A stretch of DNA of 64,000 bases from Kiloniella laminariae (GTDB lineage Bacteria; Pseudomonadota; Alphaproteobacteria; Kiloniellales; Kiloniellaceae). The position numbers and the translations under genes were made by a program. The DNA lies in the NCBI RefSeq assembly GCF_027214005.1, contig NZ_JAPWGY010000003.1, positions 124,001 through 188,000 on the forward strand, in the 5' to 3' direction. The notes under the pieces are model-generated. The model had not been told where the DNA came from and ran no database searches. It saw only the letters and a list, made by a program, of their open reading frames with translations. Shown here piece after piece: positions 25,196 to 44,370 of the stretch (within the stretch, counting starts at the first letter, position 1; each line of letters begins with the position of its first letter).

Positions 25196-25879
25196 TCAGA
25201 CTGGGTTTTTATCCTCATGTCTTGCCATTATCTGTTCTGATCTGGTTGGAAAGATAGAAACCAGAAGACGGGCCATCAACAGGCTCGACGCCTTATTATC
25301 AAGAAAATCGGGTGTTATATGCATCCTGACCCAGAGACCATCGACCATGGTATCGAGGGTATCCGCGACCGAGGCCGGGCTCCAGACGTGATCTTGGATC
25401 AAGGCTGCCGCGCCTTCACAAAGTCGCAGAATAATGCTGTAGCGTTCGCGATCAAAATCATCACACAGCTTTGCAAATCTGGGTCGCGCTGTTACTTCGC
25501 CCCAGAATGAATTCCAGAGTGTCAGATTCCGGGGGTTACAGATTTTTGGGTCCAGGTCAGCGAGCACCAGAGCAGTGATTTTTTCGACAGGATCATCAGG
25601 GGCCTTTTCAAGTTCTTCCTGCCAAAGGTCCTGATACTCCTGATAGTGATACCGCAAGGTCTCGACCAGAAGGTTTTCTTTGGTCTGGAAGTAAAAGACC
25701 GCCGCCCCCTGGGACAGACCAGCCGACTTGGCTACAGTCGCCAGTGTCGTGGCCGACATACCATGCTCGACAATTGAATCAATAGCAGCTTCAATCAACT
25801 GCCGTCGTCGTCGAGAGGTATTTTCGGTTTGCTGCCCCTTCGGTCGACCGGGACGTTTTTTTTCCTGTGCTTGTTGCAT
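25196..25879 (-). CDS. TetR/BetI-like transcriptional regulator 1
   Basis: A 227-residue TetR-family repressor. After a basic tail (KKRPGRPKG) the HTH occupies residues 24-70, with LATVAKSAGLSQGAAVFYFQTKENLL. The C-terminal domain resembles BetI, including LWNSFWGEV near residue 120. It is paralogous to the regulator at 32963, sharing the layout of a Leu-rich TLRYHYQEY-like segment and the W-x-x-FWGE motif. BetI represses choline and betaine genes, so a quaternary or related amine effector is plausible. It lies downstream of the Rieske gene, separated by a terminator. Confidence 0.85.
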   Translation of the reverse strand: MQQAQEKKRPGRPKGQQTENTSRRRRQLIEAAIDSIVEHGMSATTLATVAKSAGLSQGAAVFYFQTKENLLVETLRYHYQEYQDLWQEELEKAPDDPVEKITALVLADLDPKICNPRNLTLWNSFWGEVTARPRFAKLCDDFDRERYSIILRLCEGAAALIQDHVWSPASVADTLDTMVDGLWVRMHITPDFLDNKASSLLMARLLVSIFPTRSEQIMARHEDKNPV

Positions 25880-25943
25880 ACCCTCTGGTGCAATCTCCTA
25901 CAGCGAACTGAACTTTGCTCGCAAATATAGCATTACAACAGAA

Positions 25944-25982
25944 AAAGCGAGTAATTTCATAAACAACAGCCTTACTCGCTTT
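25944..25982 (-). terminator. Terminator of the Rieske oxygenase gene
   Basis: AAAGCGAGTAA and its exact complement form an 11-bp stem around 17 bases. On the minus strand the distal arm runs into TTTTT. It lies 31 bases after the oxygenase stop and before the TetR gene. Confidence 0.75.
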
Positions 25983-26012
25983 GCCTTTTCTGATGCAGGA
26001 AGCATTTATACC

Positions 26013-27227
26013 CTAAATCTCTCGCATCTGAGCATTCACAGCCTTTACGGTATTGAGAGCAGGAGGCTGGTCCAGATTCATCACCGGCAGATCCCGCCTG
26101 AACGCATCGTGGTAACACCTGACGTTATATTCTAGGTCAGAGAGAACGATGCCATCAAAAGCACTGGAGTTCATTGCCTCACAGGACCATTCAATCAACT
26201 GTGTATCCTCATCCGTCGTTTCATTATCTATTCGCGTAGAAAGATACCGGGCCAGGCGCATACCCCTGCTTTCATCAGCATGGCGATAAATTGCCCCGCG
26301 TTGATGGGTTCGCCCGGCAGAAATCGGATGCTCTTGGTAAAATGAGACCGTACAGGGATAGAAAGACAAAACCATGTTCGGATAAATACCGATATACAGC
26401 CAGGCCCTTTGGTTTCCTTCTGGCAGGTGCGCCACTTTCGGTAAAATTTTCTTGTATTTCTGTACACTCCAGATCTTTCCTGGCGTGTCGGTAAATTCAG
26501 CATAGGAGCGACAGCTGCCGTTTATCAGTGGTTCATCCGAATAGTTACCACCATAGAGTTCCTGCAGCTCTGGATGAGCCATTCTGACATGATACCCCTC
26601 GTTATCCACGTCGCGAACCGACTTCCAGTTTACGTCCATGTCGTGGCTCCAGTAATTCGAACCTGCAGGCACCATAGTCTCTGATCGATAATGTGCTATT
26701 TCTTCCGCATGTCTGGCCAAAAGCTCTGCAACAGGCGGCTGATCTCCTGGCAAGAAGCGGACAAACACAAACCCCATCCAGACCTCAAACTCTATCGGCT
26801 TAAGTCCATGTTCAATGGAATCAAGTTTAGGCAAGGTTTCCGGGGAGGCAGCCCCCAGCAAGGCACCATCAAGGCCATAGCTCCAGCCATGAAAAGGGCA
26901 AACAATTGCCCGTTTGCAATTGCCTTTTGATTCACACAGGACACGCGATCCACGATGGCGACAAAGGTTATGAAAAGCCCGGATCTGACCGTCTTTTCCG
27001 CGCATGAGCACAGCCCGTTCGCCGACAATATCAAAGGTTACATAATCACCAGATTCAGGAATATCGGAAACATGACATGCGACCTGCCAATGTCGCCGGA
27101 AAAGAACTTCCTTTTCCAGTTCCGTCAACTCCTCATTGTGGTAGGTCCAGCCAGGCAATCCACCCCGGTCCCAATCCTGATAACTGCTCTCTTCTGACTT
27201 CAAATCCCCAGCAGGTATTGTGTTCAT
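26013..27227 (-). CDS. Rieske non-heme iron oxygenase, quaternary-amine type
   Basis: A 404-residue oxygenase alpha subunit. The Rieske 2Fe-2S ligands are Cys89/His91 (CRHRGSR) and Cys110/His113 (CPFHGW). The mononuclear iron is bound by His213 and His218 in NEGYHVRMAHPE, with Asp341 as the probable third ligand. The residue bridging the two centres is Glu210 rather than the usual Asp, as in glycine betaine (GbcA) and carnitine (CntA) oxygenases, which demethylate or cleave quaternary amines. No beta subunit is present. The likely reductase is encoded at 43414. A palindrome shared with the aminotransferase promoter lies 24 bases upstream. The actual substrate is unknown. Confidence 0.88.
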   Translation of the reverse strand: MNTIPAGDLKSEESSYQDWDRGGLPGWTYHNEELTELEKEVLFRRHWQVACHVSDIPESGDYVTFDIVGERAVLMRGKDGQIRAFHNLCRHRGSRVLCESKGNCKRAIVCPFHGWSYGLDGALLGAASPETLPKLDSIEHGLKPIEFEVWMGFVFVRFLPGDQPPVAELLARHAEEIAHYRSETMVPAGSNYWSHDMDVNWKSVRDVDNEGYHVRMAHPELQELYGGNYSDEPLINGSCRSYAEFTDTPGKIWSVQKYKKILPKVAHLPEGNQRAWLYIGIYPNMVLSFYPCTVSFYQEHPISAGRTHQRGAIYRHADESRGMRLARYLSTRIDNETTDEDTQLIEWSCEAMNSSAFDGIVLSDLEYNVRCYHDAFRRDLPVMNLDQPPALNTVKAVNAQMREI

Positions 27228-27250
27228 TTCTTCATACCTTTTATTTTATT

Positions 27251-27260
27251 TGAGCGCTTA
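27251..27260. promoter_or_regulatory. Candidate regulator site upstream of the Rieske gene
   Basis: TGAGCGCTTA differs by one base from the perfect palindrome TGAGCGCTCA at 33716 in the aminotransferase promoter region. It is 24 bases before the oxygenase start, in an AT-rich promoter-like stretch. A shared TetR/BetI operator is my inference. Confidence 0.45.
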
Positions 27261-27443: not shown

Positions 27444-28256
27444 CTATAGCCGGTATTTCTGCCGTGCCTGATGCCTCATAATCAGGCCTGCACAGATAAC
27501 CCCCAATGCCACAGCCAGAATAATCAATGTCGCCAGGGCATTAATGTCTGGCGTCACCCCGAGCTTCACTTTCGAGAAGATCACCATGGGCAGCGTGCTG
27601 CTGCCCGGCCCCGACACAAAGCTGGCAATCACCAGATCGTCCAGGGACATCGTAAAGGAAAGAAGCCAGCCTGCGATCATGGCCGGCATCAGCAGGGGAA
27701 GAGTGATATCCCAGAGAACACGCAAAGGCTTGCCGCCCAGATCCATAGCCGCTTCCTCCAGATTCTCCTCCATCCCCGAAAGAGCGGACTGAACAATTAT
27801 CGCCACATACGCCATGCTGAAGGTTATATGAGCAATGGTTATTGTTGTAACACCACGGCCATTTGGCCAGCCAACCAGATCCTCCATCGAGACAAACAGT
27901 AACAATAGGGACAGTCCCGTGATCACTTCTGGCATGACAAGCGGTGCTGTGATCATCCCGGTAAAGGCCAATCGGCCTCGAAATCGACCAAACCGCGACA
28001 AGGCCAGCCCCGCCAGCACCCCGAGAATGACAGAAAAGGTTGCCGACACAGCAGCGATCCGAAAACTGAGAAGAGCAGCATTAATAATCAGATCATTCTG
28101 AAACAGTTCTCCGTACCATTTAACAGAGAAACCACCCCAGATCGTCGCAAGACGAGAACTGTTAAAGGAATAGAAAATCAGTGACAGGATCGGCACATAC
28201 AAAAAGGCAAAACCGAAAACCAGCACAGAAAGCAGAAAAGTAGAACGTTTTTTCAT
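27444..28256 (-). CDS. ABC transporter permease, PotC-like
   Basis: A 270-residue inner-membrane permease of the spermidine/putrescine (PotC) family with six membrane helices. The EAA loop that docks the ATPase is visible as EEAAMDLGGKPLRVLWDITLP near residue 170. It is the last gene of a potD-A-B-C-type operon. The stop of the preceding permease gene is three bases before its ATG, and a GGAG-AGG ribosome-binding site overlaps that stop. Related importers also carry glycine betaine-like or other cationic amines, so the substrate should not be assumed to be a polyamine. Confidence 0.9.
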   Translation of the reverse strand: MKKRSTFLLSVLVFGFAFLYVPILSLIFYSFNSSRLATIWGGFSVKWYGELFQNDLIINAALLSFRIAAVSATFSVILGVLAGLALSRFGRFRGRLAFTGMITAPLVMPEVITGLSLLLLFVSMEDLVGWPNGRGVTTITIAHITFSMAYVAIIVQSALSGMEENLEEAAMDLGGKPLRVLWDITLPLLMPAMIAGWLLSFTMSLDDLVIASFVSGPGSSTLPMVIFSKVKLGVTPDINALATLIILAVALGVICAGLIMRHQARQKYRL

Positions 28257-28259
28257 GAC

Positions 28260-29231
28260 CTAGCTCCGCTCCCCGTCTTTTGCCTGAAAATGCTGATACA
28301 TCATGATCGGCACCACCAGAAAAGCCAGAAGAGCAACGGCTACAGCAGAGGCAACAGGCCAATCCCGGTTACTGAAGAATTCATCAAACAGAACCCGCCC
28401 GATCATCAGGGTGTCATAATTACCCAACAGTGCCGGAATAACGTACTCACCTGTTGCCGGAATAAAGACCAGCAACGATCCGGCAACTATACCCGGAAGC
28501 GTCAACGGTAACGTTACGGTGTAAAAAACCGTAAAAGGCTTGCCCCCCAGATCCGCCGCCGCCTCATTCAGGCTTTCATCCAGCTTTTCCATCGTCGCGT
28601 AGAGCGGCAAGATCATAAAGGGGAGATAGGAATAAACGATACCGACATAGATCGCCCCCTCGGTAAACATCATGTTCAGGGGTTCATCAATAATTCCCAT
28701 TGAAAGCAAGGCACCGTTAATAATGCCGTTTTTATTCAGCAATCCCATCCAGGCATAAATACGCAAGAGAAACGACGTCCAGAAGGGCAAAACCACCATC
28801 AGCAACAGTATGCCCCTGATATCAGAACGGGAACGGGCTATCCCGTAGGCCATTGGATAGCCGATCAACAGGCAGATAATTGTCGACTTTCCCGCAAGAA
28901 AGAGAGAATTGAGATAGGAAGAATAATAGAGATCATCCGTCACAAGGAACCTGAAGTTCTCGAAGGTGACCGAAATCGTAAAACTCAGATCCTCAGCCCA
29001 CTCGAACAAAGGTGTGAAAGGCGGACGGGCAATCATCCCTTCTGCCAGGCTGATCTTGAGAACAATAACAAAAGGAACGATAAAGAAAATCAACAGCCAG
29101 ACAAGCGGTACGGCGATGACAAAACGTTTCCAGTTCCGCTGTATCAATTTTCCACTCAAATCCCCGGCCATCTTTACAATGGAGCCCGCTGATAAAGTCG
29201 GAAGCTTTTTGTTTGCCGCATCCCTGCTCAT
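28260..29231 (-). CDS. ABC transporter permease, PotB-like
   Basis: A 323-residue permease with one N-terminal and five to six core membrane helices. The EAA motif reads NEAAADLGGKPFTVFYTVTLP near residue 220. A soluble N-terminal stretch of about 35 residues precedes the first helix (FVIAVPLVWLLIFFIVPFVI). The ATG at 29231 overlaps the ATPase stop as ATGA; a longer open frame reaching 29264 is rejected for this reason. It pairs with the PotC-like subunit to form the membrane channel of the importer. Confidence 0.9.
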   Translation of the reverse strand: MSRDAANKKLPTLSAGSIVKMAGDLSGKLIQRNWKRFVIAVPLVWLLIFFIVPFVIVLKISLAEGMIARPPFTPLFEWAEDLSFTISVTFENFRFLVTDDLYYSSYLNSLFLAGKSTIICLLIGYPMAYGIARSRSDIRGILLLMVVLPFWTSFLLRIYAWMGLLNKNGIINGALLSMGIIDEPLNMMFTEGAIYVGIVYSYLPFMILPLYATMEKLDESLNEAAADLGGKPFTVFYTVTLPLTLPGIVAGSLLVFIPATGEYVIPALLGNYDTLMIGRVLFDEFFSNRDWPVASAVAVALLAFLVVPIMMYQHFQAKDGERS

Positions 29232-30379
29232 TTCATCAACACCACCATGCTGGAGGGCTCCCACGAGACAAAAACAGCATCTTCCCAGGTGAGATTGCGC
29301 TCTCCCTCTGAAGAGCGGCGCAGGTTCGGCGTCGTCGCCTGCAGGATCTGGCCATTTGCCAAACGGATCCTGTAAATTGTATGGGTCCCCATATAGGCAA
29401 TATCATGAATGAAAGCGGGCAGCTCGTTTACGCCATTTTCGACCGTAGATTGGCGGGAAATCTGGATTTTCTCGGGCCGGACTGCCAACCAAAGCTGCCG
29501 GGCTTCCTTCACGGCAACACCACGGTCCAGGTAAAAATCTTGCGCCAGAGCCCCACAATGCGCCACCAGATGATCACGGCCACTTTCCTTGACATGACAA
29601 TCAAACATATTGATTGAACCGATGAATTCAGCAGTGAATTTTGTTTCAGGACTTTCGTAAATATCCGACGGCGTTCCAACCTGGATAACATTTCCCTTGT
29701 CCATCACAGCGATCCGGCTGGACAGGGTCATGGCCTCTTCCTGATCATGGGTTACCACGACAAAAGTAATTCCCAGCTTATCCTGAATATTCATCAATTC
29801 GAATTGGGTATGTTCCCGCAGCCTTTTATCCAGCGCCCCCAGCGGCTCATCCAGCAGCAGAACTTTTGGGCGCTTCACCAGAGAACGGGCCAAAGCCACA
29901 CGTTGTTTCTGCCCCCCGGACAATTGATTGGGTTTGCGTTTTGCAAAGTCGGACATCTCGACCAAGGCAAGCATATCAGCAACACGTTCACGGGTTTCCA
30001 CCTTTGAAACGCCATCCCGGTGCAAACCATACGCGACATTTTTTTCTACCGTCATATGCGGAAAAAGCGCATAGGACTGAAACATCATATTTACCGGCCG
30101 TTCATAGGGCGGCATATCGGTTACATCCGTGCCGTCAATAATGACCCGGCCTTTGCTGGGTTTTTCAAAGCCCGCCAGGATACGCAACAGTGTCGTCTTG
30201 CCACAACCCGATCCGCCAAGAAGCGAGAAAAGCTCGCCCTTGTATATTTTCAGGCTGATATCGTCGATTGCAGTAAAAACACCAAACTTCTTTCCCACAC
30301 CCTGGATATCAATAAAAGGCTCTGCCTCGGCATCAAAAGCAGGTCTATCCCCAACAATCGGTTTTTTGAATTCGGTCAT
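29228..30379 (-). CDS. ABC transporter ATPase, PotA-like
   Basis: A 383-residue ATPase of the polyamine/opine/osmolyte import class. Visible motifs: Walker A GGSGCGKTT, Q-loop MFQSYALFPHM, signature LSGGQKQRVALARS, Walker B VLLLDEPLGALD, switch His in VVVTHDQEEA. The C-terminal 130 residues form the TOBE_2 regulatory domain (WLAVRPEKIQIS). The ATG at 30379 has AGGAG ten bases upstream. A strong hairpin separates it from the binding-protein gene, which would let the binding protein be made in excess. Confidence 0.93.
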   Translation of the reverse strand: MTEFKKPIVGDRPAFDAEAEPFIDIQGVGKKFGVFTAIDDISLKIYKGELFSLLGGSGCGKTTLLRILAGFEKPSKGRVIIDGTDVTDMPPYERPVNMMFQSYALFPHMTVEKNVAYGLHRDGVSKVETRERVADMLALVEMSDFAKRKPNQLSGGQKQRVALARSLVKRPKVLLLDEPLGALDKRLREHTQFELMNIQDKLGITFVVVTHDQEEAMTLSSRIAVMDKGNVIQVGTPSDIYESPETKFTAEFIGSINMFDCHVKESGRDHLVAHCGALAQDFYLDRGVAVKEARQLWLAVRPEKIQISRQSTVENGVNELPAFIHDIAYMGTHTIYRIRLANGQILQATTPNLRRSSEGERNLTWEDAVFVSWEPSSMVVLMK

Positions 30380-30405
30380 CACACGCTTTCTCCTAAAGCG
30401 GGAAC

Positions 30406-30449: not shown

Positions 30450-31577
30450 TTAGCTTCCAGTCTTGATCCGGCTCCAGCTGCGCGTACGAACGCGCTCTAC
30501 CTTTGGCGGCAATGTTTTTGCAAGATACATCCGTTCCATGGCCTTGCTATCAGGATAAACGGCCGGATTGGTCCGGATCTCCTCATCAACCAACGGAGTA
30601 GCAGCCTTGTTTGCATTAGCATACCAGGTATAGTTTGTTGCAGCAGCAATCACTTCGGGACGCATCATATAGTTGAGCCACTTGTAAGCTGCTTCCTTGT
30701 TCGGCGCATCACTCGGGATCGCCCACATATCAAACCAGGCTCCGGCACCTTCTTTCGGCACAAAGTAATTCAGATTGATGTCCACGCCCGCTTCTTCAGC
30801 CCGGGATGCCGCCACCGCATAGTCACCGGACCAGGTCATGGCAATACAGCGTTCTTTGCTTGGTAACGCGTTCAGATAGTTGGAACTGTCAAAGGTTGTC
30901 ACACTCCCCCTGATCGCGGATACAGCCTCGACAACCTTGTCGTAATCTTCCGGGTTGGTCGACATGGGATCCAGCCCCAGATAGGAAAGAGTCATCGGGA
31001 TCACATCAACAGGTGAATCCAGCAAGGATATGCCACAGTCAGCAAACTTTGAAATGATCGAGGGATCCAGAATCATGCTGAAGGAACCTATGGGCGCATC
31101 AGGCATCCGCTCCTTGATCATATCGACATTGTAAGTGATGCCGACAGTACCCCACATATAGGGCACCCCGTATTTGTTGCCCTGATCCCAGCTTTCCACG
31201 ACCTTCAGGATATCCACATCAAGGTTGGCATAATTATCAAGCTTGCTTTTATCAAGAACCTCAAACACACCCGCCTCAATAAGGCGCGGCATAAATGAGC
31301 CCGCGTGCAAAACAACATCATAACCTGAACTGCCGGTAATCAGTTTTGCGTCAACTGTTTCACTGGAATCATAGGTGTCATAAATGACCTTGATTCCTGT
31401 TTCAGCTTCAAAATCGGCGATTGTACTTTCACCGATATAATCGACCCAGTTATAGACGTGTAATTCGTCTGCTTTTGCAGATGACAAGGCAATGGATAGA
31501 GAAACAGCTGTTCCTGCAATCAACGCCATCGTCGCGACATTGCCCAACACACCCGTTATCTTTTTTCTTGTACTCAT
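30450..31577 (-). CDS. Periplasmic solute-binding protein, PotD/PotF-like
   Basis: A 375-residue secreted binding protein. The signal peptide covers about residues 1-35 and ends SLSIALSSAKA before DELHVYNWVDYIG, the standard start of mature PotD/PotF proteins. Middle segments such as GVPYMWGTVGITYN and IAMTWSGDYAVA match the family ligand-binding fold. The ATG at 31577 with GGGAG upstream is preferred over an in-frame start six codons earlier. It would deliver the amine substrate to the PotABC-like complex. Ligand identity cannot be read from the motifs. Confidence 0.9.
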   Translation of the reverse strand: MSTRKKITGVLGNVATMALIAGTAVSLSIALSSAKADELHVYNWVDYIGESTIADFEAETGIKVIYDTYDSSETVDAKLITGSSGYDVVLHAGSFMPRLIEAGVFEVLDKSKLDNYANLDVDILKVVESWDQGNKYGVPYMWGTVGITYNVDMIKERMPDAPIGSFSMILDPSIISKFADCGISLLDSPVDVIPMTLSYLGLDPMSTNPEDYDKVVEAVSAIRGSVTTFDSSNYLNALPSKERCIAMTWSGDYAVAASRAEEAGVDINLNYFVPKEGAGAWFDMWAIPSDAPNKEAAYKWLNYMMRPEVIAAATNYTWYANANKAATPLVDEEIRTNPAVYPDSKAMERMYLAKTLPPKVERVRTRSWSRIKTGS

Positions 31578-31730
31578 GAGTATCTCCCAGTTCATTGACG
31601 TGCGCGCTCCCTGATTTTTTTATATTCTTCAGCGCATGCCCAATTTAATCAGAAGGTACCTCAACCAGATCTTGTTGTTTGTTACTGTCTTGTTTTTATG
31701 CTGGATAGAAGTCCCGCTTAAACATCAAGC

Positions 31731-32918: not shown

Positions 32919-32962
32919 CACCCTGCTCCTGTATTGCTGATCGACCTGTATTGATCGGCCGT

Positions 32963-33715: not shown

Positions 33716-33725
33716 TGAGCGCTCA
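33716..33725. promoter_or_regulatory. Perfect palindrome in the divergent promoter region
   Basis: TGAGCGCTCA lies between the BetI-like regulator gene and the aminotransferase operon, 68 bases before the aminotransferase start. A nine-of-ten match occurs upstream of the Rieske gene at 27251. The most economical reading is a TetR-family operator that lets one regulator govern both arms. Confidence 0.5.
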
Positions 33726-36790: not shown

Positions 36791-38356
36791 ATGACGACAA
36801 GATATGACACAATTGTAATCGGGGCCGGTCACAATGGCCTGACCTGTGCCGCCTATCTTGCCAAGGCGGGCAAAAAGGTTCTGGTTCTCGAAGCAAAAGA
36901 CCGGATTGGCGGCATGGCTATCACAGAACCAACTGAAGACGGGGTTCTGATCCCGACCTGTGCCCATCTGCTGTACCAGCTTCACCCTGACGTTATCCGG
37001 GACCTGAACCTGAATTTGAAGATGGCCGCCTCTTCCCTCCCGACCATTGCTCTGGGCTCTGATGGCCGCCACCTCAAAATACTGGGAGAAACCCTCACCG
37101 CCATGAATGGCGCGGATTTATCTTCCAAGGACCAGGAAAATTACACCCAGGTTATGCGGGATCTGAAAAAATTTGCCCGCGTCCTTGGTGCTTTACTCGG
37201 GCAGAAACCTCCCCGCCTCAAAAACCGGGACTGGGAAGATACCAAAACCCTGCTTAAACTTGGCCTCTCGATCCGGATGATGGGCCGTAAATCCATGCAG
37301 GAATTTTTGCGAATTGCCCTGCTCAATATTGCCGATCAATTGGAAGATCACCTGGAAAACGATCTTTTAATGGGGGTAACGGCCATGGAAGCTGTCTGGG
37401 GAACCCATCTCGCCCCCCGATCACCCGGTTCCGTTCTTAGCCTGATGTATAGACTTGCCGGAAGCATGGAAGGTACTCAGGGTGCCATCGGTATTCCCGC
37501 AGGGGGCATGGGTAAAGTTTCTGAAGCACTCGAGCAAGCAGCAACCAGAGCAGGGGCAACCATCCGTACCAATGCGCCGGTTAAGTCCCTTCTTGTTGAA
37601 AATGATACCGTGATCGGCGTAGAGCTGGAATCAGGCGAAAAACTTCTGGCCAACTCCGTTGCTTCAAGTGCAGATCCACAGCGGACCTTTCTCTCGCTTC
37701 TCGGCGCAGAACACCTGGATGCCGGTTTCACCCGACGTCTTAACAAGATTCGAAATCGGGGGGATGCAGCAAAGGTAAATCTGGTTCTGGATGGTTTGCC
37801 GGAATTCAACGGCTTGAGCCAACAGGATCTCGCAGCGAAACTGGTCATCGCCCCCAGCATCAACTATATCGAAAAAGCCTTCAACCACGCAAAATACGGG
37901 GAGTTCAGCGAACATCCTGCATTGGAGATCACACTTCCCACTGTGGTTGATCCAGCCAGTTCCCGATCGAACAAACATGTTCTCTCCATTGTGGCCCAAT
38001 ACGCCCCTTATCAGCTCAAAGCAGGCTGGAGTGAAGAACAACGGGCAGATCTTGGAGAGGCCGTAATTCGTACACTGGAGGCCTATGCCCCCAACATCCG
38101 CAAGCAGATTGTTTCACAGCAGGTATTAACGCCATCAGATCTGGAACAGCTTTTCAATGTTACAGGTGGTCATTGGCACCACCTCGAAATCCAGGTCGAT
38201 CAGCTGTTGATGATGCGCCCGCTTCATGGGACAGCCCAGTATGAAACCCCCATCGGAGGCCTGTTCCTTTGTGGTGCCGGGGCGCATCCAGGTGGAAATG
38301 TTACCGGAGCACCCGGCATGAATGCCGCCCAACGTATTCTGTCCAGAAAGGGCTGA
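36791..38356 (+). CDS. FAD-dependent oxidoreductase, PYROXD2/phytoene-desaturase-like (2)
   Basis: A 521-residue paralogue of the preceding protein, with VIGAGHNGLTCA at residues 9-20, VLEAKDRIGGMA and the C-terminal LCGAGAHPGGNVTGAPGMN. The two share the same domain order but differ widely in the central substrate region, so they probably act on different substrates or form a heteromer. The genes are almost touching (three bases), and the GcvT-like gene follows four bases later, so all are co-translated from one mRNA. Confidence 0.85.
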   Translation: MTTRYDTIVIGAGHNGLTCAAYLAKAGKKVLVLEAKDRIGGMAITEPTEDGVLIPTCAHLLYQLHPDVIRDLNLNLKMAASSLPTIALGSDGRHLKILGETLTAMNGADLSSKDQENYTQVMRDLKKFARVLGALLGQKPPRLKNRDWEDTKTLLKLGLSIRMMGRKSMQEFLRIALLNIADQLEDHLENDLLMGVTAMEAVWGTHLAPRSPGSVLSLMYRLAGSMEGTQGAIGIPAGGMGKVSEALEQAATRAGATIRTNAPVKSLLVENDTVIGVELESGEKLLANSVASSADPQRTFLSLLGAEHLDAGFTRRLNKIRNRGDAAKVNLVLDGLPEFNGLSQQDLAAKLVIAPSINYIEKAFNHAKYGEFSEHPALEITLPTVVDPASSRSNKHVLSIVAQYAPYQLKAGWSEEQRADLGEAVIRTLEAYAPNIRKQIVSQQVLTPSDLEQLFNVTGGHWHHLEIQVDQLLMMRPLHGTAQYETPIGGLFLCGAGAHPGGNVTGAPGMNAAQRILSRKG

Positions 38357-38359
38357 GCC

Positions 38360-39592
38360 ATGACAAAATCCATTTCGCCCCGGAAGTCTGAACTCCTCTC
38401 CGCAAAACCGCGCATTAATGCTGGCCGGAAGCCGACACCCTTTCACCCAAGACAGGTCGAAAAATGTGAGACCAACGACTGGACACTCTGGGCTGGATAC
38501 AGCGTTCCGAACAGCTATCACAGTGTCGAACTGGAATACTTCTCCATCCGCAACGGCGCCACTCTTTATGACATCTCGCCCATGTGTAAATATCGCATCA
38601 AGGGTCCGGATGCCGAACGCTTTATGAACCGGTTTGTCCCAAGAGATGTCAAAAAAATCAAACCGGGCCGGGTTGCCTATGCCATCTGGTGTAACGATGA
38701 AGGCCATATACTGGATGATGGCACAATATTCAGGTTTGGCCCTGATGATTTCCGGCTGTGCAGCCAGGAACGCCAATACGCCTGGCTGATGGACTCCGCC
38801 CTTGGATTTAATGTCGAGATCCTCGACGAAACCGACGATATCGCCGCCCTCCAGTTCCAAGGGCCGACAACCTTTGCCATTCTCGAAGCCATGGGAATTA
38901 AAGGTGTCGAGACACTCAAACCCTTTGATCACAAAAATTTCCCCTTTGCCGGAACGGAGCTGATGGTCTCCCGGACAGGCTTTACCGGTGATTTGGGGTA
39001 TGAGCTCTGGATAGAGCCGGGCAAAGCCCTTGAGCTCTGGGATGCCCTGATGGCAGCGGGTGCGGACAGAACCATATCCCCGATCGGCTCACTTGCTCTC
39101 GACATGGCGCGAATAGAAGCCGGGTTTATCCAGCCGACCGTCGACTTTCTTCATGCAGAACACGTCGTGCGGCACACCAGAGGACGTTCACCCTTTGAAC
39201 TGGGTCTCGATTGGCAGGTTGACTTTGGCAAAGGGCACTTCACTGGGCGCCGGGCCCTGTTAAAGGAAAAAGAGGGCAACAGCTCGCGCTATTGCTTTGT
39301 CGGTCTCGAAATTGAAGGCAACAAGCCCGCCCATAACGCGCTGGTCTATCACAAACAAAAAAAGGAAATAGGTCACATTACCTCGGCAGTCTGGTCACCA
39401 ACCATGAAAAACAATCTCGCCATGGCGCTGCTCCAGCGTCCCTTTGGCGTAGATATCCAAGAAGACCTCTGGGTCGAGATCTATGTCGACAAGGAACTGA
39501 AATGGGACCGGGTAATGGCCAAGGCGAAAATTGTTGACCGCCCTTTTTTCAATCCCCCCAGAAAACGCCTGACACCACCAGCAAGATTCTAG
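38360..39592 (+). CDS. GcvT-like aminomethyltransferase/THF-dependent demethylase
   Basis: A 410-residue protein of the GCV_T plus GCV_T_C fold. After a 50-residue N-terminal extension come the GcvT landmarks LYDISPMCKYRIKGPD, the ELMVSRTGFTGDLGYELW folate-site region and LALDMARIEAGF. The family includes glycine cleavage T protein, sarcosine/dimethylglycine dehydrogenase domains and DMSP demethylase, all of which pass one-carbon units to tetrahydrofolate. No lipoyl H-protein or GcvP is nearby, so a role in stripping a methyl group released by the FAD enzymes is the best inference. Confidence 0.87.
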   Translation: MTKSISPRKSELLSAKPRINAGRKPTPFHPRQVEKCETNDWTLWAGYSVPNSYHSVELEYFSIRNGATLYDISPMCKYRIKGPDAERFMNRFVPRDVKKIKPGRVAYAIWCNDEGHILDDGTIFRFGPDDFRLCSQERQYAWLMDSALGFNVEILDETDDIAALQFQGPTTFAILEAMGIKGVETLKPFDHKNFPFAGTELMVSRTGFTGDLGYELWIEPGKALELWDALMAAGADRTISPIGSLALDMARIEAGFIQPTVDFLHAEHVVRHTRGRSPFELGLDWQVDFGKGHFTGRRALLKEKEGNSSRYCFVGLEIEGNKPAHNALVYHKQKKEIGHITSAVWSPTMKNNLAMALLQRPFGVDIQEDLWVEIYVDKELKWDRVMAKAKIVDRPFFNPPRKRLTPPARF

Positions 39593-39602
39593 GGAGCTAC
39601 GC

Positions 39603-41702
39603 GTGCGCCATCGTTTATCTTCTCTGCTTGACCCCCGGTCAATTGCCCTGATCGGGGCCAGTGCCAAGGCCGGATCTGTTGGACAGATCATGTTACAACA
39701 CATCCGGATTGGTGGGTTTGCCGGACCTGTGTTTGCTATCCATCCAACCAACGACGAGGTCGAAGGCTTTCGCTGTTACCCCGGCCTGGGTGACTTACCC
39801 GAAGTGCCAGAGCATGCTATTCTCTGCGTCGGCGATCATCAGGTCGTAGAACGCCTGTCAGAATGTGCGGCTCTTGGTATAAAAGCCGTAACCATCCTTT
39901 CTCCTCTTCATGGTGACGATGACAATCCTGATAGCCTGAAGCAGGCTGTTTGCAACATTGCCGAAGAGACGGGCATCCTGGTCGTTGGCGGAAACTGTAA
40001 CGGATTTTACAATTTCTGCTCCGGCCTCTGGGCCTGCGGCTTTCCAACCCGCCATGATCACCGTGCAGGCGGCATCACTCTTCTGACCCACTCAGGTTCA
40101 TTGTTTAACGCCATTCTCGATACAGACTCCCGACTTGATTACAACTATGTGGTCTCTACGGGGCAAGAATTAACAACAGATCTGGCTGACTACATGGACT
40201 TCGCGCTCGAGCAGGACTCGACCCGGGTTATCGGATTGTTTATGGAAACGGCACGGAATCCCGAAGGTTTCGCCAAAGCCCTCGCCAAAGCCGCAGAACG
40301 TAAAATCCCTGTCGTCGCCCTCAAGGTTGGCCGAACCGAAAAATCGGCCCGGTTGGCCGCCAGTCACAGCGGTGCTTTGGTTGGGAATGATCAGGCCTAC
40401 ACTGCGCTCTTTGACCGCTATGGCGTACGACGTGTCGAGACGATTGACGAACTGGTTTTCACTCTGATGCTTTTTGCTGAGCCAACCCGGGTGGGAAGCG
40501 GGGCTCTTGCCTCAATCCACGATTCCGGGGGCGAACGCGAACTGATGGTTGATCTTGCCGAACAGATAAAAGTTCCCTTTGCCGAACTTTCTGCTGATAC
40601 CCGCCAACGTATCCAGTTAAAACTGGGGCCGGGCCTTAAAGCAGAGAACCCGCTGGATGCCTGGCATTCCTATAACAATTACGAGGAAAGTTACGGACAG
40701 AACCTGATTGAGATGATGTCCGATCCGCAGGTAGCCCTGGGCGTCATCGTGGGAGACCGAGGCCCTGGCGGGCAGATTTACCCTGAGTACATCCGCTACG
40801 CTCAAGCCGCAAAAGATACTTCTGGAAAGACTGTCTGCATTGTAGCCAATCATCAGGGAACCGGGACCTGTCCTTCTGTGATAGAGGCAACCCGCAAGGG
40901 AATTCCAGTGCTTGATGGCATCACCCCTTTTTTGAAGGCTGCCAGCCACCTTTTTGCCTATCGGGATTTTCAGATCCGTCAGGAAACATCCGCCCCCCAG
41001 CCCCCTTGTGATGTGGTTGAGAAATGGCGCGACTATCTGATCAGAAAAGGGTCTCTGGATGAATATACCGCTTCCCGGCTTCTTCAGGAATTCGGTATCC
41101 CAGTTCCAGCGTCCCAACTGGCGCAATCGGCATTTGAAACCGTCGTTGCAGCCCGGAAAATCGGTTATCCCGTTGTGGTCAAAACCGCCGAAGCCGGGAT
41201 CAATCATAAATCAGATTCAGGCGGGGTTTTCCTCAATCTAACCAACGATGCAGCTGTTTCCAGTGCCTATGACCAGCTTTCGAAAAAGTTGAGCCCCAGG
41301 GTTATGGTTGCCTCGATGATTCAGGGGAAAGGCGTCGAGATGATTTTGGGGATGGTCAATGATCCTCAGTTCGGCCCTGTAGTGATGGTCGGATTTGGCG
41401 GAATTCATGCCGAGATTCTCGCAGATACTGCTGTCGCCCTGCCACCCTTCGGTGAAGAAACAGCACTGAGGATGATCAACAGCTTGAAATTACGAAAACT
41501 TCTGGATGGTGTGCGCGGTGCTCCGCCCGTGGATATGACCGCGCTTGTCGGGTGTATCACCCGCTTTTCCAGCATGATTCATTCCCTTGGTGATCTGATC
41601 AGCGACTTTGATATCAATCCCCTTCTGGTCTTGCCTCAGGGGTGCATTGCTCTGGATGCCCTGGTGCTCCGGGATAACCCCGAGGCAAAAGCTGCAGAAT
41701 AA
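39603..41702 (+). CDS. Fused NDP-forming acyl-CoA synthetase
   Basis: A 699-residue ligase with alpha and beta parts in one chain. It has an N-terminal CoA-binding Rossmann domain (PRSIALIGASAKAGSVGQ), the succinyl-CoA-ligase-like domains with the LTHSGSLFNAI and AASHSGALVGND segments, and a C-terminal ATP-grasp domain starting near residue 480 (ASRLLQEFGIPVPA) with GYPVVVKTAEAGINHKSD. Such enzymes make acyl-CoA with ADP and phosphate as products. The start is a GTG at 39603 with AGGGAG eight bases upstream. It should thioesterify the carboxylic acid that the acyl-CoA dehydrogenase then oxidises, or an end product. Confidence 0.88.
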   Translation: MRHRLSSLLDPRSIALIGASAKAGSVGQIMLQHIRIGGFAGPVFAIHPTNDEVEGFRCYPGLGDLPEVPEHAILCVGDHQVVERLSECAALGIKAVTILSPLHGDDDNPDSLKQAVCNIAEETGILVVGGNCNGFYNFCSGLWACGFPTRHDHRAGGITLLTHSGSLFNAILDTDSRLDYNYVVSTGQELTTDLADYMDFALEQDSTRVIGLFMETARNPEGFAKALAKAAERKIPVVALKVGRTEKSARLAASHSGALVGNDQAYTALFDRYGVRRVETIDELVFTLMLFAEPTRVGSGALASIHDSGGERELMVDLAEQIKVPFAELSADTRQRIQLKLGPGLKAENPLDAWHSYNNYEESYGQNLIEMMSDPQVALGVIVGDRGPGGQIYPEYIRYAQAAKDTSGKTVCIVANHQGTGTCPSVIEATRKGIPVLDGITPFLKAASHLFAYRDFQIRQETSAPQPPCDVVEKWRDYLIRKGSLDEYTASRLLQEFGIPVPASQLAQSAFETVVAARKIGYPVVVKTAEAGINHKSDSGGVFLNLTNDAAVSSAYDQLSKKLSPRVMVASMIQGKGVEMILGMVNDPQFGPVVMVGFGGIHAEILADTAVALPPFGEETALRMINSLKLRKLLDGVRGAPPVDMTALVGCITRFSSMIHSLGDLISDFDINPLLVLPQGCIALDALVLRDNPEAKAAE

Positions 41703-41748
41703 ACACTGACTAAGTACTGAAAAACATAAGAGCCGGGAGAAACCAAAG

Positions 41749-43272
41749 ATGCATCTCAACCAGGTTGAACATTACAGCAAAAGTGACTGGCAAAAACTCG
41801 CTTCCCATTTCCATCCTGAAACGGGCCTGTTCATTGACGGGTCTTATCAAAAGGCGCTCAGGGGCGACAGCTTTCAATCCATCAATCCCGCAACAGGCAC
41901 CCCTGTTGCCGAACTGGCTCTGGGAACAGAGGCAGACATCGACAGGGCTGTTGCCGCCGCACAGAAATCTTTCCGCTCCGGCAACTGGTCGCGGATGGCT
42001 CCAAGGGATCGGATGTCTGTCCTCTATCGCCTGGCAGACCTGATTGAGGAAAACGGGGCTGAGCTGGCTTTGATGGACTCGCTTGATATGGGGAAGCCGA
42101 TCGCGGATTGCATCGCTGTTGACGTACCTGAAGTTGCCAAAACCTTCCGCTTTTTTGCAGAATGCATCGACAAGATTGAAGGCAGTGTAACAGCCACAGA
42201 ATATAGTGTTCTCAGCATGGTTCTGCGCGAACCCATCGGGGTTGTCGCCGCAATTTCTCCCTGGAACTACCCTCTGTTGATGGCGACCTGGAAAGTTGCT
42301 CCTGCTCTCGCGGCAGGGAACAGCGTTATTCTCAAACCTGCTGAACAATCTCCATTAAGCTGTTTGAAACTGGCCGAGCTTTTTGTCCAGGCGGGTGGCC
42401 CCGAAGGTGTCTTCAACGTCGTCAATGGCATGGGCGAAGTTGCTGGCAAAGCCCTGGCACTGCATATGGATGTCGGCAAAGTCAGTTTTACCGGGTCGAC
42501 CGAAGTCGGCAAGCTGATGCTGATTTACGCAGGCCAAAGCAATATGAAAAAAGTCTCGCTGGAATGCGGTGGCAAGAGTCCGCATATTTTCCTCGGCGAT
42601 CTCAGCGGTGACCATCTGGATACAGCCGTCGAAACGGCTTGTGGAGCAATATATAGCAACATGGGTGAAGTCTGTAGCGCAGGATCCCGTATCATTGTTG
42701 ACAGCTCCATTCACGAGGAATTCGTCGAACGGTTTATCCGGAAGGGTAAAGATGCCTTCATTCCTGGTGACCCGCTTGATCCCGCAACAAACATGGGGCC
42801 ACTTGTCGACCACAGTTCACAGGCCCGGGTCTTGAAAATGACAGAAGATGCCATTCGTGAAGGTGCAAAGCTTCAATTCGGAGGGGATGTTCCCGGCGGC
42901 GCGCTGTCTTCAGGGGCTTATGTAAATCCTACGCTTTTCACCTCTGTCCATAATGACATGTCCATAGCCCGGAATGAAGTCTTCGGCCCTGTTGCCTCCA
43001 TTATCAAGGTAGATGGTCTTGATGAAGCTCTGGCTATCGCCAATGACAGTAACTATGGTCTCGCTGCCGGAATCTGGACCAATGACCTCAACCAGGCACA
43101 CCGTTTCGTCAAGGAAGTGGAAAGCGGAACCGTTTTTGTCAATTCCTATGATGAAGGGGATATGACACAACCCTTTGGCGGCTTCAAACAGTCCGGTAAT
43201 GCCAAGGACAAATGTTTCGAAAGCCTCCTCAGCTATACCCGATCCAAAGCTGCCTGGTATCGATTACGTTAA
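41749..43272 (+). CDS. NAD(P)-dependent aldehyde dehydrogenase
   Basis: A 507-residue ALDH-superfamily enzyme. Active-site residues are Asn173 in SPWNYP, the general base Glu272 in LECGGKSP and the nucleophile Cys309 in GEVCSAGSR; the cofactor loop is FTGSTEVG at 247-254. It is most like gamma-glutamyl-aminobutyraldehyde/betaine-aldehyde type dehydrogenases of amine catabolism. GGGAG lies ahead of the ATG. It would oxidise the aldehyde produced by oxygenase cleavage or transamination. Confidence 0.92.
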   Translation: MHLNQVEHYSKSDWQKLASHFHPETGLFIDGSYQKALRGDSFQSINPATGTPVAELALGTEADIDRAVAAAQKSFRSGNWSRMAPRDRMSVLYRLADLIEENGAELALMDSLDMGKPIADCIAVDVPEVAKTFRFFAECIDKIEGSVTATEYSVLSMVLREPIGVVAAISPWNYPLLMATWKVAPALAAGNSVILKPAEQSPLSCLKLAELFVQAGGPEGVFNVVNGMGEVAGKALALHMDVGKVSFTGSTEVGKLMLIYAGQSNMKKVSLECGGKSPHIFLGDLSGDHLDTAVETACGAIYSNMGEVCSAGSRIIVDSSIHEEFVERFIRKGKDAFIPGDPLDPATNMGPLVDHSSQARVLKMTEDAIREGAKLQFGGDVPGGALSSGAYVNPTLFTSVHNDMSIARNEVFGPVASIIKVDGLDEALAIANDSNYGLAAGIWTNDLNQAHRFVKEVESGTVFVNSYDEGDMTQPFGGFKQSGNAKDKCFESLLSYTRSKAAWYRLR

Positions 43273-43289
43273 GACAGGTGCAGAGTTTT

Positions 43290-43394
43290 ATGGCTTATTT
43301 TGGTAAAAAGCCTGCCGCAGCACCCGACAGGCCTTTTACAAACAGGGGAATATACCCAACTATAAATCAGGGTCCGGCAAGGCCTCTACGATAA
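43290..43394 (+). CDS. Possible 34-residue basic peptide between ALDH and reductase genes
   Basis: A short frame starting MAYFGKKPAAAPDRPF and ending PARPLR, rich in Pro, Arg and Lys. It fills most of the 141-base gap between the aldehyde dehydrogenase and the reductase. A weak AGGTG-CAGAG sequence precedes the ATG. I recognise no family, and the gap could equally be an ordinary leader. Confidence 0.3.
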   Translation: MAYFGKKPAAAPDRPFTNRGIYPTINQGPARPLR

Positions 43395-43413
43395 CAGCGG
43401 GAGAAAACAAGTT

Positions 43414-44370
43414 ATGGTGCCGAAACTCATCGTCCGTATCGAAGCGGTCAAAGAGGAAGCAGAGAATATCCGCTCGTATGAACTCCGTTCACCCGACGGC
43501 ACGGACCTTCCCGTTTTTTCGGCTGGCTCACATATTGATTTTTTTCTTCCCTCAAACATGATCCGGCAATATTCGCTCTCGAATGATCCGGTTGAACGCC
43601 ACAGATACGTTGTTGCCGTTCAAAAGGAAGAAAATGGACGGGGCGGTTCCAGCTATGTTCATACGAGCCTGAAGCCCGGTGATCAGATCGAGATCTCTCA
43701 TCCCAGAAATCACTTCGAGCTCGATGAAACGGCAGAGCGATACAAACTGATTGCAGGCGGCATTGGTATAACCCCCATCCTCTCGATGGCGCGTCGCCTG
43801 AAATCACTTGGAAAACCGTTTCAGCTTTATTATGCCTGTCGCAACAAACAGCGGGCAGCTTTCACCGAAGAGATGATCGCTTCGGGACTGTCCGGCCATC
43901 TGCTTTATTCTTTTGATGATCAGCAAGGCCCCTTGAAAACACAGGCGCTGTTTGGATTGCCGGAACAAGGTGTCCAGATCTATTGCTGTGGCCCGACCGG
44001 GCTCATGGATGCAGTCAAATCTGCAACCAGAAGCTGGCCTGTCGGAACCGTGCGTTTTGAGCATTTTTCCGCTGATGAAACCACAGGCCCCCGTGCAGAT
44101 GACGGCAGCTTTGAAGTCGTGATCAACAGCACCGGCAAACGTTACCAGATTCCAGCCGGGAAAAGCATACTGTCTGTTCTGGCTGAAAACGGTATTTTTG
44201 TCGACAATGCCTGCTGTGAAGGAATCTGCGGCACCTGCGAAACTGGCCTGCTTGAAGGAGAGGCCGATCATCGGGATATGGTTTTGAGCGATCAGGAAAA
44301 AACCGAAAACCGCCATATCATGCTCTGTTGCTCCCGCGCGAAGAGCGCCAGCCTTACTCTGGATCTCTAA
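43414..44370 (+). CDS. Oxygenase reductase (VanB/CntB type: FMN, NAD, 2Fe-2S)
   Basis: A 318-residue phthalate-dioxygenase-reductase-like protein. The flavin motif RQYSLSN is at 51-57, the nucleotide-binding GGIGITP at 115-121 and YCCGPTGLM near 190-198; the C-terminal 2Fe-2S domain has Cys267, Cys272, Cys275 and a Cys near 305. This is the single-component electron supplier normally paired with alpha-only Rieske oxygenases such as VanA, CntA and GbcA. The only Rieske oxygenase in the window is at 26013, so I infer that the two work together despite lying in opposite arms of the cluster. Confidence 0.92.
   Translation: MVPKLIVRIEAVKEEAENIRSYELRSPDGTDLPVFSAGSHIDFFLPSNMIRQYSLSNDPVERHRYVVAVQKEENGRGGSSYVHTSLKPGDQIEISHPRNHFELDETAERYKLIAGGIGITPILSMARRLKSLGKPFQLYYACRNKQRAAFTEEMIASGLSGHLLYSFDDQQGPLKTQALFGLPEQGVQIYCCGPTGLMDAVKSATRSWPVGTVRFEHFSADETTGPRADDGSFEVVINSTGKRYQIPAGKSILSVLAENGIFVDNACCEGICGTCETGLLEGEADHRDMVLSDQEKTENRHIMLCCSRAKSASLTLDL

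Follow-up and report, generated by a model that had tools for sequence, protein, structure and literature searches.

A 19-kb block of genes is shared by two Kiloniella genomes, that of the window (the whole 64,000-nucleotide stretch of Kiloniella DNA analysed here) and that of K. laminariae (L106), and its two arms are a single unit that forms a discrete block within the genus. We tentatively propose, at somewhat less than an even chance, that this island is a regulon for the breakdown of an N-methylated, polyamine-like amine, one of whose ends is a free primary amine and the other a methylated nitrogen, and we infer its substrate, its reactions and their order.

Gene content of the island

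All 15 open reading frames, with outer ends at 25196 and 44370 of the window, were confirmed and classified by Pfam and NCBIfam profiles, in agreement with the positions and families of the original prediction. The two FAD oxidoreductases that it had labelled PYROXD2-like are present, their profile matches being amine-oxidase/CrtO-like, and its two BetI-like regulators are TetR proteins with a BetI-type C-terminus (25196-25879 and 32963-33625). The features are as follows.

24948..25023, minus strand: tRNA-Thr (cgt), found by ARAGORN; left boundary of the island, outside the pathway
25196..25879, minus strand: TetR1, BetI-like regulator (Pfam TetR_N/TetR_C_6; below the BetI equivalog cut-off)
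26013..27227, minus strand: Rieske oxygenase alpha subunit, CntA/Stc2-like fold, with DVDNEGYHV at residues 206-214
27251..27260, plus strand: TGAGCGCTTA, candidate operator upstream of the Rieske gene
27444..28256, minus strand: PotI-like permease (57% identity to E. coli PotI)
28260..29264, minus strand: PotH-like permease (54% identity to E. coli PotH)
29228..30382, minus strand: PotG-like ATPase (above the potA subfamily cut-off; 52% identity to PotG)
30450..31595, minus strand: PotF-like binding protein (W37, D39, W244, D247 and D278 kept)
31731..32921, minus strand: acyl-CoA dehydrogenase (ACAD) with the Trp/Glu signature GWCFSE, by profile and alignment
32963..33625, minus strand: TetR2, BetI-like regulator, by profiles
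33716..33725, no strand assigned: TGAGCGCTCA, palindromic candidate operator in the divergent TetR2/aminotransferase promoter
33794..35107, plus strand: class III aminotransferase AT3, HemL/GntE-like, by profiles
35174..36787, plus strand: FAD1, FAD amine-oxidase/CrtO-like oxidoreductase, by profiles; part of the conserved core
36791..38356, plus strand: FAD2, second FAD oxidoreductase, by profiles; part of the conserved core
38360..39592, plus strand: GcvT-like folate-dependent one-carbon transferase, by profiles, motifs conserved
39603..41702, plus strand: NDP-forming acyl-CoA ligase of the 4HB-CoA ligase/DddX family, with Trp354 at the position of DddX W391
41749..43272, plus strand: aldehyde dehydrogenase (ALDH), PuuC/BADH-like (47% identity to E. 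coli PuuC)
43414..44370, plus strand: FAD/NAD/2Fe-2S reductase (36% identity to YeaX)

GcvT lies in the frame of FAD2 and starts one codon past its stop. No island protein reached an NCBIfam equivalog cut-off among the best 25 matches considered for the larger families, and PotG alone exceeded a subfamily cut-off in the same matches (potA, 422 against 355.6 bits), so the set can be assigned to no named pathway. The predicted structure of FAD1 is poor (AlphaFold, pLDDT 54). Promoter-like sites were fewer than in shuffled sequences (12 against 18.3), and terminator-like sites were slightly above them (28 against 22.7, sd 5.4).

Conservation of the two arms

Both arms lie between tRNA-Thr and hemY in the window's Kiloniella and in K. 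laminariae, and both are absent from this site in all six of the other near-complete Kiloniella genomes. The distance from M24 to hemY is 21.2 kb with the island and 1.2-7.1 kb in the six congeners with the empty site; tRNA-Thr adjoins TetR1 in K. laminariae (L106) and adjoins hemY in G008 (L168). The assembly of K. laminariae places the Rieske gene and the other island genes on separate contigs, and both pieces are at contig ends.

The FAD1 family has at least 594 pattern matches in sequenced genomes, at least 583 of them confirmed, and we compared the best 80 loci, which range from marine-named single cells and metagenome-assembled genomes to rhizobia; gene families were counted only when named by a profile or sequence search. 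FAD1, FAD2 and GcvT follow each other directly in 73/80 loci; the seven without the full trio are truncated, each stopping no more than 1.8 kb from where its last detected core gene starts. Parts of the set are found in other proteobacteria, and most of both arms is present, with gene order kept, in L053, L061, L085, L099 and L100. Among 385 genomes, Rieske occurs in 10, FAD1 in 18 and both in 7, against 0.5 expected (hypergeometric 1.5e-8; 6 genomes and 2.3e-7 with the window's own genome removed). FAD1 has no close Rieske gene in 11 of its 18 genomes, and Rieske no close FAD1 in 3 of its 10; in G026 and G027 no close FAD1 accompanies the Rieske and ABC genes. On plasmids, the seven records with FAD1 at 60% identity or more are the seven best Rieske records (52-58%), the next among the matches listed being 37%. 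Of four pattern matches on viral contigs, none was a relative of GcvT.

In many relatives a TetR-type operator is found upstream of both the Rieske and the FAD1 genes. It lies near the gene start in 14/46 cases for Rieske and 12/95 for FAD1, compared with 1/395 for the FAD2, GcvT, Pot, ligase and ALDH genes together; the p-values of this comparison take no account of relatedness, and the motif was picked after the sites had been seen. The Rieske site in the window deviates from the motif, and with one mismatch allowed the motif is not in excess in the window (7 against 6.7). The BetI-like TetR repressors would act on both arms at this predicted TGANCGNTCA-like operator.

The original prediction had named a gene-neighbourhood search among its checks and arms never found together in other genomes as a sign of unrelated neighbours. 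Both arms do recur together, and the single two-armed regulon stands because the arms are jointly present or jointly absent at one site in the genus, recur jointly elsewhere and share an operator in relatives. The set is more than a chance assembly, since it recurs in other genomes and is a discrete block in the genus.

Evidence from the individual enzymes

The Rieske model (pLDDT 82) retrieved CntA, Stc2 and one putative oxygenase (3n0q) at Foldseek ranks 1-18, with a modest margin over ring-hydroxylating folds (E values of 6e-24 and 1e-20, TM similar). According to an excerpt of PMC7948474, group V is defined at CntA position 203, by an aromatic residue in Va and by Asn in Vb. The island enzyme has neither and carries Asp208 there, as do 36/36 orthologues at 48% identity or more; 26 more distant matches have Tyr or Phe (19) or Asn (3), with 4 unread, and the Rieske2 members of relatives have Tyr in 13/13. 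The Cys-X-X-Cys pair (206/209), described for some group V members in part of PMC10952381, is also missing, with Gly/Val in 36/36 orthologues. The bridging Glu (CntA E205) is kept as E210 of the full-length protein and is invariant in the alignment, where it is numbered 209 without the start Met. The enzyme shares with CntAB/YeaWX and Stc2 the nearest solved folds, the bridging Glu and a YeaX-like reductase in the same island, but differs in Asp at position 203 and in the missing Cys pair; its identity to YeaW is 29%. Over 318 aa the reductase has 36% identity to YeaX, which is the reductase of E. coli carnitine monooxygenase, and this supports its proposed role as partner of the Rieske oxygenase. 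Both proteins fall below the NCBIfam equivalog cut-offs for GbcAB of glycine betaine demethylation (140.5 against 670 bits for the oxygenase and 89.4 against 500 bits for the reductase).

In GcvT the DD motif is kept in 85/91 and the GYE motif in 91/91 sequences, both of which we take to have roles in GcvT-type folate one-carbon transferases. Its nearest solved relative is the trimethylamine N-oxide demethylase Tdm, which is also nearest among NCBIfam models, so that it resembles the folate-linked N-demethylases (Tdm, DMGDH, sarcosine oxidase) with motifs kept. In Tdm, however, the GcvT part is the C-terminal portion of a longer protein, whereas the island encodes it as a gene of its own, with CrtO-like FAD enzymes as partners.

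The importer was originally described as PotDABC-type; it is indeed a polyamine-type ABC importer, but it is PotFGHI-like, with 45-57% identity to E. coli PotF/G/H/I. On the residue roles given in PMC8666671, D39 and D247 of the primary-amine site and W37 and W244 of the aromatic box are retained in the PotF-like protein, while S38, which also belongs to the primary-amine site, is V; of the distal acidic residues D278 is kept and E185 is D, and the pocket further differs from E. coli PotF by F276 to W and S85 to A. Ser occupies position 185 in L100 and L118, and Thr occupies position 278 in four distant PotF-like proteins (L071, L077, L078, L094). Two aminotransferase subfamilies use one slot, in 18 and 44 loci and never both (45% identity thresholds). 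L098 and L100 have neither and carry PuuA- and PuuB-like genes (in L100 at 36% identity to E. coli PuuA and 41% to PuuB); since PuuA-like genes adjoin an aminotransferase in 4/7 loci, this pair is no strict replacement. The importer, the ALDH and these Puu-like genes of some relatives recall the PotFGHI/Puu putrescine pathway of E. coli, whose puu region as annotated differs from the island in having no Rieske, FAD1/FAD2 or GcvT gene. Together, the primary-amine site of PotF and the omega/HemL aminotransferases make a polyamine-like compound that carries a free primary amine a likelier substrate than a classical betaine such as carnitine, stachydrine or trigonelline.

The CoA ligase belongs to the same ACD family as 4-hydroxybutyrate-CoA ligase and the ATP-dependent DMSP lyase DddX, for which PMC8163506 gives W391 as the cation-pi residue, H292 as the phospho-His and E432 as the base. 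Equivalents of W391 and H292 are kept in 10/10 distinct cluster orthologues; the Trp is also found in one of four paralogues (L070, past a 4-residue insertion), and another has Tyr. E432 is Glu in the window's ligase but in just 3/10 distinct orthologues. A DMSP-like lyase role was rejected on this ground, and the enzyme is more likely a plain ligase because the lyase base is not conserved. In the ACAD, the GWCFSE segment, which we take to line the acyl pocket, has its Trp in 13/13 and its Glu in 12/13 cluster members examined (L113 being without Glu), against 0/5 paralogues for each, three of which have Tyr in place of Trp. These residues of ligase and ACAD hint at a cationic acyl group. A glutaryl-CoA dehydrogenase role of the ACAD, leading from delta-valerobetaine to glutarate, was considered and is not claimed. 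Similar logic is seen in the Cai pathway for carnitine and gamma-butyrobetaine, with ligase and ACAD, plus an enoyl-CoA hydratase in 2/80 loci (L061, L085); AcuI is likewise in 2/80 (L061, L104). The ACAD, however, is 28% identical to CaiA, the annotated cai region has no demethylase, and CaiC is presumably of another ligase family.

Proposed pathway and its alternatives

In the proposed scheme, the PotFGHI-type importer would take up the methylated polyamine-like amine, and the Rieske oxygenase with its YeaX-like reductase would oxidatively remove an N-methyl group at the most substituted nitrogen. FAD1 and FAD2 would oxidise the remaining N-methyl groups, the adjacent GcvT handing the methylene carbon to tetrahydrofolate. 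The aminotransferase (perhaps, in two relatives, the PuuA/PuuB-like pair in its place) would convert the primary-amine end to an aldehyde and the ALDH would oxidise it to the acid, which the NDP-forming ligase would activate with the positive charge still on the molecule. The ACAD may then desaturate the CoA ester to begin beta-oxidation, and the BetI-like repressors would act on both arms. The logic of the original prediction, in which a folate-linked GcvT takes part in N-demethylation and is joined by aldehyde oxidation, transamination and CoA-dependent oxidation, remains plausible within the two-armed regulon, with a polyamine-like amine now preferred to a classical betaine as substrate. 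It had also remarked that it knew of no described pathway using all these pieces, and no operon matching the island was found in the open-access full-text literature that was searched.

The alternative that we weigh most seriously, though rather unlikely, is a betaine route. Its substrate would be gamma-butyrobetaine, delta-valerobetaine or carnitine, which after import would be demethylated or CoA-activated and beta-oxidised, the aminotransferase acting on the amino acid left by demethylation (GABA or 5-aminovalerate). The BetI-like regulators, the CntA/Stc2-like oxygenase with its YeaX-like reductase and the residues suited to a cationic acyl-CoA would all fit, as would the hydratase and AcuI of a few relatives for conversion of a C5 chain to acryloyl-CoA; against this, a conserved primary-amine site is superfluous for a betaine without a primary amine, the ACAD diverges from CaiA with a different pocket segment, and the Rieske enzyme lacks the group V signatures. 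A methylated lysine or other methylated diamino acid, such as trimethyllysine (the laminine of Laminaria, a kelp), demethylated to lysine-like intermediates, is unlikely. Such a dicationic compound with a primary amine would suit the PotF-like protein, K. laminariae is the sister species and the demethylation core is present, but the aminotransferases are of HemL/GntE and omega types, not alpha-transaminases, and we know of no PotF-type protein that binds alpha-amino acids.

It is also quite unlikely that the substrate is an unmethylated polyamine, with the FAD enzymes as polyamine dehydrogenases, Rieske hydroxylating the chain and GcvT having no folate role. The polyamine-type importer, the PuuC-like ALDH, the PuuA/PuuB-like genes of some relatives and the Pfam amine-oxidase match of both FAD enzymes agree with it, but GcvT keeps its motifs and is among the most constant members (73/80), and a Rieske amine oxygenase and GcvT would be left without a clear role. 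That the arms are two unrelated operons, neighbours by accident, is very improbable and already largely refuted: the separate contig of the K. laminariae Rieske gene and the genomes with one arm (G026, G027 and the 11/18 with FAD1) speak for it, whereas the joint empty site, the co-occurrence above chance, the operator common to both arms in relatives and the contig-end positions of both K. laminariae pieces speak against it. Homarine or another N-methylpyridinium carboxylate is equally far-fetched, although ring hydroxylation is found in the Rieske family and the host is, we assume, marine. Mgd is reported to take part in homarine catabolism (as cited in an excerpt of PMC13390433), but no Mgd gene is named among the island families by Pfam or NCBIfam, and the polyamine-type pocket is a poor match.

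Returning to a methylated polyamine-like substrate, a bolder extension, which we consider doubtful, is that N-methylated polyamines in general have a widespread pathway of their own that is still undescribed; examples of such substrates are methylated diamines and the N-methylated oligopropylene amines found in diatom silica. Shortening of the chain would start at the primary-amine end and run through amine, aldehyde, acid, CoA ester and acryloyl/propionyl-CoA, with a new FAD-FAD-GcvT demethylase delivering the methyl groups to folate and a new DVDNEGYHV clade of Rieske oxygenases. ACAD, ligase and ALDH occur in 10, 8 and 7 of the 80 loci at the thresholds used and the reductase in one (40% threshold), that of K. 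laminariae, so that the end route or the substrate may differ in most of the wider family. If the island is a demethylation pathway, it would consume methylated nitrogen compounds as a sink so far unrecognised, supply one-carbon units and flag substrates that current annotation does not reveal. With Asp at the cation site, the Rieske clade would offer a test of how such oxygenases discriminate quaternary from protonated amines. The FAD1 family has hundreds of relatives among sequenced genomes. Some relatives carry a histamine/trimethylamine-dehydrogenase-like member, which, like the CntA/Stc2-like Rieske fold, speaks for a methylated amine, and a SAM methyltransferase, which has no role in the proposed scheme, is present in 34/80 loci.

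Gene content of the island and its site in Kiloniella

The original prediction had placed a set of 15 genes at 25196-44370, and all of them were found there with the families it had named, in the window (contig C33, 124001-188000) of a genome of 4.38 Mb:

Left arm, minus strand: TetR2, acyl-CoA dehydrogenase (ACAD), PotF/G/H/I-like importer, Rieske oxygenase, TetR1 (TetR1 and TetR2 are BetI-like regulators)
Right arm, plus strand: class III aminotransferase (AT3), two FAD amine-oxidase/CrtO-like oxidoreductases (FAD1, FAD2), GcvT, NDP-forming CoA ligase, aldehyde dehydrogenase (ALDH), reductase

None of the island proteins reached an NCBIfam equivalog cut-off among the profile matches listed. 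Among the FAD1 matches listed, the nearest from a named genome is that of Kiloniella laminariae DSM 19542 (L025), 98% identical to the window protein. FAD2 and GcvT are read in one common frame, a TGA stop plus a single codon lying between the two (38340-38365), a near-fusion that recalls fused flavin-GcvT demethylases.

In the window genome, 21.2 kb separate the M24 peptidase gene (end 23230) from hemY (start 44451). In six other near-complete Kiloniella genomes, all with both flanking genes on one contig, the gap measured between match ends is 1158, 1278, 1562, 2661, 2864 and 7066 bases. Queried with the window genes plus nine additional family members (E <=1e-5), these six stretches gave no cluster genes, the sole other match being a hydratase (31%) in the congener G008. 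In a seventh congener (G005, 77% complete), neither flanking gene was found. The tRNA-Thr gene adjoins TetR1 in the window genome and in K. laminariae, adjoins hemY in G008, and was not found at the M24/hemY junction in the other five near-complete congeners. In the two sister species, then, both arms occupy the interval from tRNA-Thr to hemY, and the remaining congeners lack them there. The flank distances, the empty stretches and the tRNA-Thr placement bear out the prediction of a single two-armed unit: at this site both arms are present or missing as a whole.

In K. laminariae, the Rieske gene starts 451 bases into a separate contig, and PotI is found close to the beginning of the main one, a split that fits an assembly break between the two genes. 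The start of the Rieske contig (L106:1-270), judged by eye, resembles the final part of a transposase gene; this suggests that an insertion element lies between Rieske and PotI, which would explain the contig break. At the same junction, G008 has some 4.7 kb of other sequence (L168:2175-6874) with a hydratase-like gene beside tRNA-Thr, and the tRNA-Thr/hemY junction may therefore be an insertion hotspot.

Recurrence in other genomes

Scanning genome contigs with the FAD1 alignment gave at least 594 pattern matches, of which 583 were confirmed and the best 80 used. FAD1, FAD2 and GcvT are consecutive on the same strand in 73 of these 80 loci. The other seven hold FAD1 and FAD2 (L046, L051, L062, L095, L099) or FAD1 alone (L094, L102), and each of these loci ends no more than 1.8 kb beyond the point where its last detected core gene starts. 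The neighbourhood search that had been proposed did recover the set elsewhere: most of both arms occur in L053, L061, L085, L099 and L100, with the whole or a large part of the Kiloniella-type order PotIHGF-ACAD-TetR, AT3-FAD1-FAD2-GcvT-ligase-ALDH.

Family counts in the 80 loci, taken at set identity thresholds, are lower bounds because the flanks were at most 10 kb: the importer (at least two of PotG/H/I) in 54, an aminotransferase in 62, any Rieske in 39, ACAD in 10, the ligase in eight (one of them, L094, passing in the ATP-grasp part only), ALDH in seven and the reductase in one, that of K. laminariae. Only a minority of the loci carry the end-route genes ACAD, ligase and ALDH. In Fuscovulum ytuae (L126:24647-27899), the cluster runs on into genes whose annotations read DMSP lyase family, amidohydrolase and methyltransferase.

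A separate type of Rieske oxygenase

In a class survey of 385 genomes (FAD1 at E <=1e-150, Rieske at E <=1e-90), FAD1 was found in 18 and Rieske in 10, with both in 7 against 0.47 expected (hypergeometric 1.5e-8, or 2.3e-7 minus the own genome, relatedness not corrected). Rieske at this threshold is missing in 11 of the 18 FAD1 genomes, and FAD1 in three of the 10 Rieske genomes. Among annotated plasmids, the top seven Rieske records (52-58%) are the same seven that have FAD1 of at least 60%; the Rieske record listed after them stands at 37%. Two genomes (G026, G027) carry Rieske without a close FAD1, beside polyamine-type ABC genes. On a Sphingobium plasmid (L128:8166-10958), a Rieske protein (37%) and a FAD1-like protein (38%) are immediate neighbours, with a sodium symporter alongside; this pair is possibly a related two-gene system.

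The best Foldseek matches of the Rieske model (pLDDT 82) are CntA and Stc2, other Rieske folds following close behind. According to PMC7948474 and PMC10952381, positions 203/205/206/209 of CntA carry residues characteristic of group V Rieske oxygenases. The window protein has Asp208/Glu210/Gly211/Val214 there, and all 36 orthologues at 48% identity or more have Asp/Glu/Gly/Val. Among 26 more distant Rieske matches in the loci, position 203 is Tyr/Phe in 19, Asn in three and unreadable in four; Rieske2, a further type in the relatives, has Tyr/Glu/Cys/Cys in 13 of 13. With Asp208/Gly211/Val214 instead of the group V residues, the window protein is, by this residue pattern, a sister type outside group V as defined.

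Candidate shared operator

Two sites were noted as candidate operators:

33716-33725: palindrome TGAGCGCTCA, divergent TetR2/AT3 promoter
27251-27260: TGAGCGCTTA, upstream of the Rieske gene

The pattern TGAGCGCTYA, chosen after seeing the sites, has three matches over both strands of the window (two places) against 0.22 in shuffles; with one mismatch it shows no excess there (7 against 6.7). In the relatives, TGANCGNTCA, generalised after sites were seen in the same loci, was counted from 220 bases before to 30 bases after the estimated gene start. It occurs at 14 of 46 Rieske, 12 of 95 FAD1 and 3 of 20 AT3 genes (background 0.007 per 250 bases), though kinship among many of the loci (Shinella, Hoeflea) makes the independent events fewer than these counts; the site upstream of Rieske in the window itself, one base off, is left out. 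It stands at one of 395 FAD2, GcvT, PotF/G/H/I, ligase and ALDH genes. The other classes gave 0/14 (Rieske2), 1/6 (Rieske3, another further type), 2/54 (second aminotransferase), 1/15 (ACAD) and 5/41 (methyltransferase).

Binding pockets and variable slots

The window binding protein is 45% identical to E. coli PotF and keeps W37, D39, Y40, S87, W244, D247, D278 and Y314; it differs by the substitutions E185D, F276W, S38V, S85A and A182S. According to PMC8666671, S38/D39/D247 of E. coli PotF hold the primary amine N1, W37/W244/F276 form an aromatic box, E185 and D278 are among the distal residues, and F276W raises spermidine affinity and lowers putrescine affinity. The kept residues together with the change of F276 to W indicate a primary amine with a second cation as the likely ligand, perhaps larger than putrescine. 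Distant PotF-like proteins vary, with Ser at 185 in L100 and L118 and Thr at 278 in L071, L077, L078 and L094.

Among solved structures, the CoA ligase comes closest to 4-hydroxybutyrate-CoA ligase (301 bits), followed by DddX (290 bits). In DddX, PMC8163506 names W391 as cation-pi residue, H292, and E432 as base. Equivalents of W391 and H292 are present in 10 of 10 distinct cluster ligases, and E432 is Glu in three of them. Four ligase paralogues have a gap (two), Tyr (one) or Trp after an insertion (L070) at the W391 position. The ACAD segment GWCFSE..KW, which we take from work on medium-chain ACAD to line the acyl pocket, has Trp in all 13 distinct cluster orthologues that were aligned and Glu in 12 of them; five paralogues have neither, with Tyr at the Trp place in three. 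GcvT, whose nearest solved relative is TMAO demethylase, has the DD motif in 85 of 91 and GYE in 91 of 91 sequences.

In 18 loci the aminotransferase slot holds a member of the HemL/GntE-like subfamily seen in the window, in 44 a member of another class III subfamily; no locus has both. The second subfamily is 24-32% identical to AT3, and one member passes the NCBIfam PRK07036 cut-off. Neither was found in 18 loci at the 45% threshold, among them L056, which has a more distant homologue below it. PuuA-like genes occur in seven loci, beside an aminotransferase in L026, L061, L085 and L092 and without one in L090, L098 and L100; the last two also have a PuuB-like gene, and in L100 the PuuA-like protein shares 36% and the PuuB-like protein 41% identity with its E. 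coli counterpart.

A SAM methyltransferase is present in 34 of the 80 loci, 30 of them with the second aminotransferase subfamily and none with the window's; it has no role in the demethylation scheme proposed below. One example (L113:13860-14645) is weakly like sarcosine/dimethylglycine and ArsM types. The binding protein of second-type loci is mostly about 20-30% identical to the window PotF, or unmatched, in view of which the wider family may use other substrates on the same core.

Proposed route

We infer the following reactions and their order. The substrate would be imported and then oxidatively N-demethylated by the Rieske oxygenase with the YeaX-like reductase (36% identical to YeaX), and also by FAD1/FAD2, GcvT handing the carbon to tetrahydrofolate. 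The aminotransferase would convert the primary amine to an aldehyde, which a PuuC-like ALDH (47% identical to E. coli PuuC) would oxidize to the acid; a CoA thioester would then be formed and desaturated by ACAD.

Full-text searches of an open-access library turned up no described pathway with this gene set. PMC13390433 cites a report that Mgd takes part in homarine catabolism. We infer that the island joins polyamine-type import to amine demethylation and CoA-linked chain oxidation, a variation on known themes, and its distinctive parts would be the separate Rieske clade and the FAD-FAD-GcvT core of putative chemistry.

Among the 80 loci, chain-route additions are an enoyl-CoA hydratase in two and acrylyl-CoA reductase AcuI in two; the one AcuI scanned passes its cut-off. 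If AcuI, present in these two loci only, belongs to the route, one would expect a C5 or a C3 unit that ends as acryloyl-CoA. A histamine/trimethylamine-dehydrogenase-like enzyme occurs at threshold in two of the 80 loci and also in the genomes G031 and G347.
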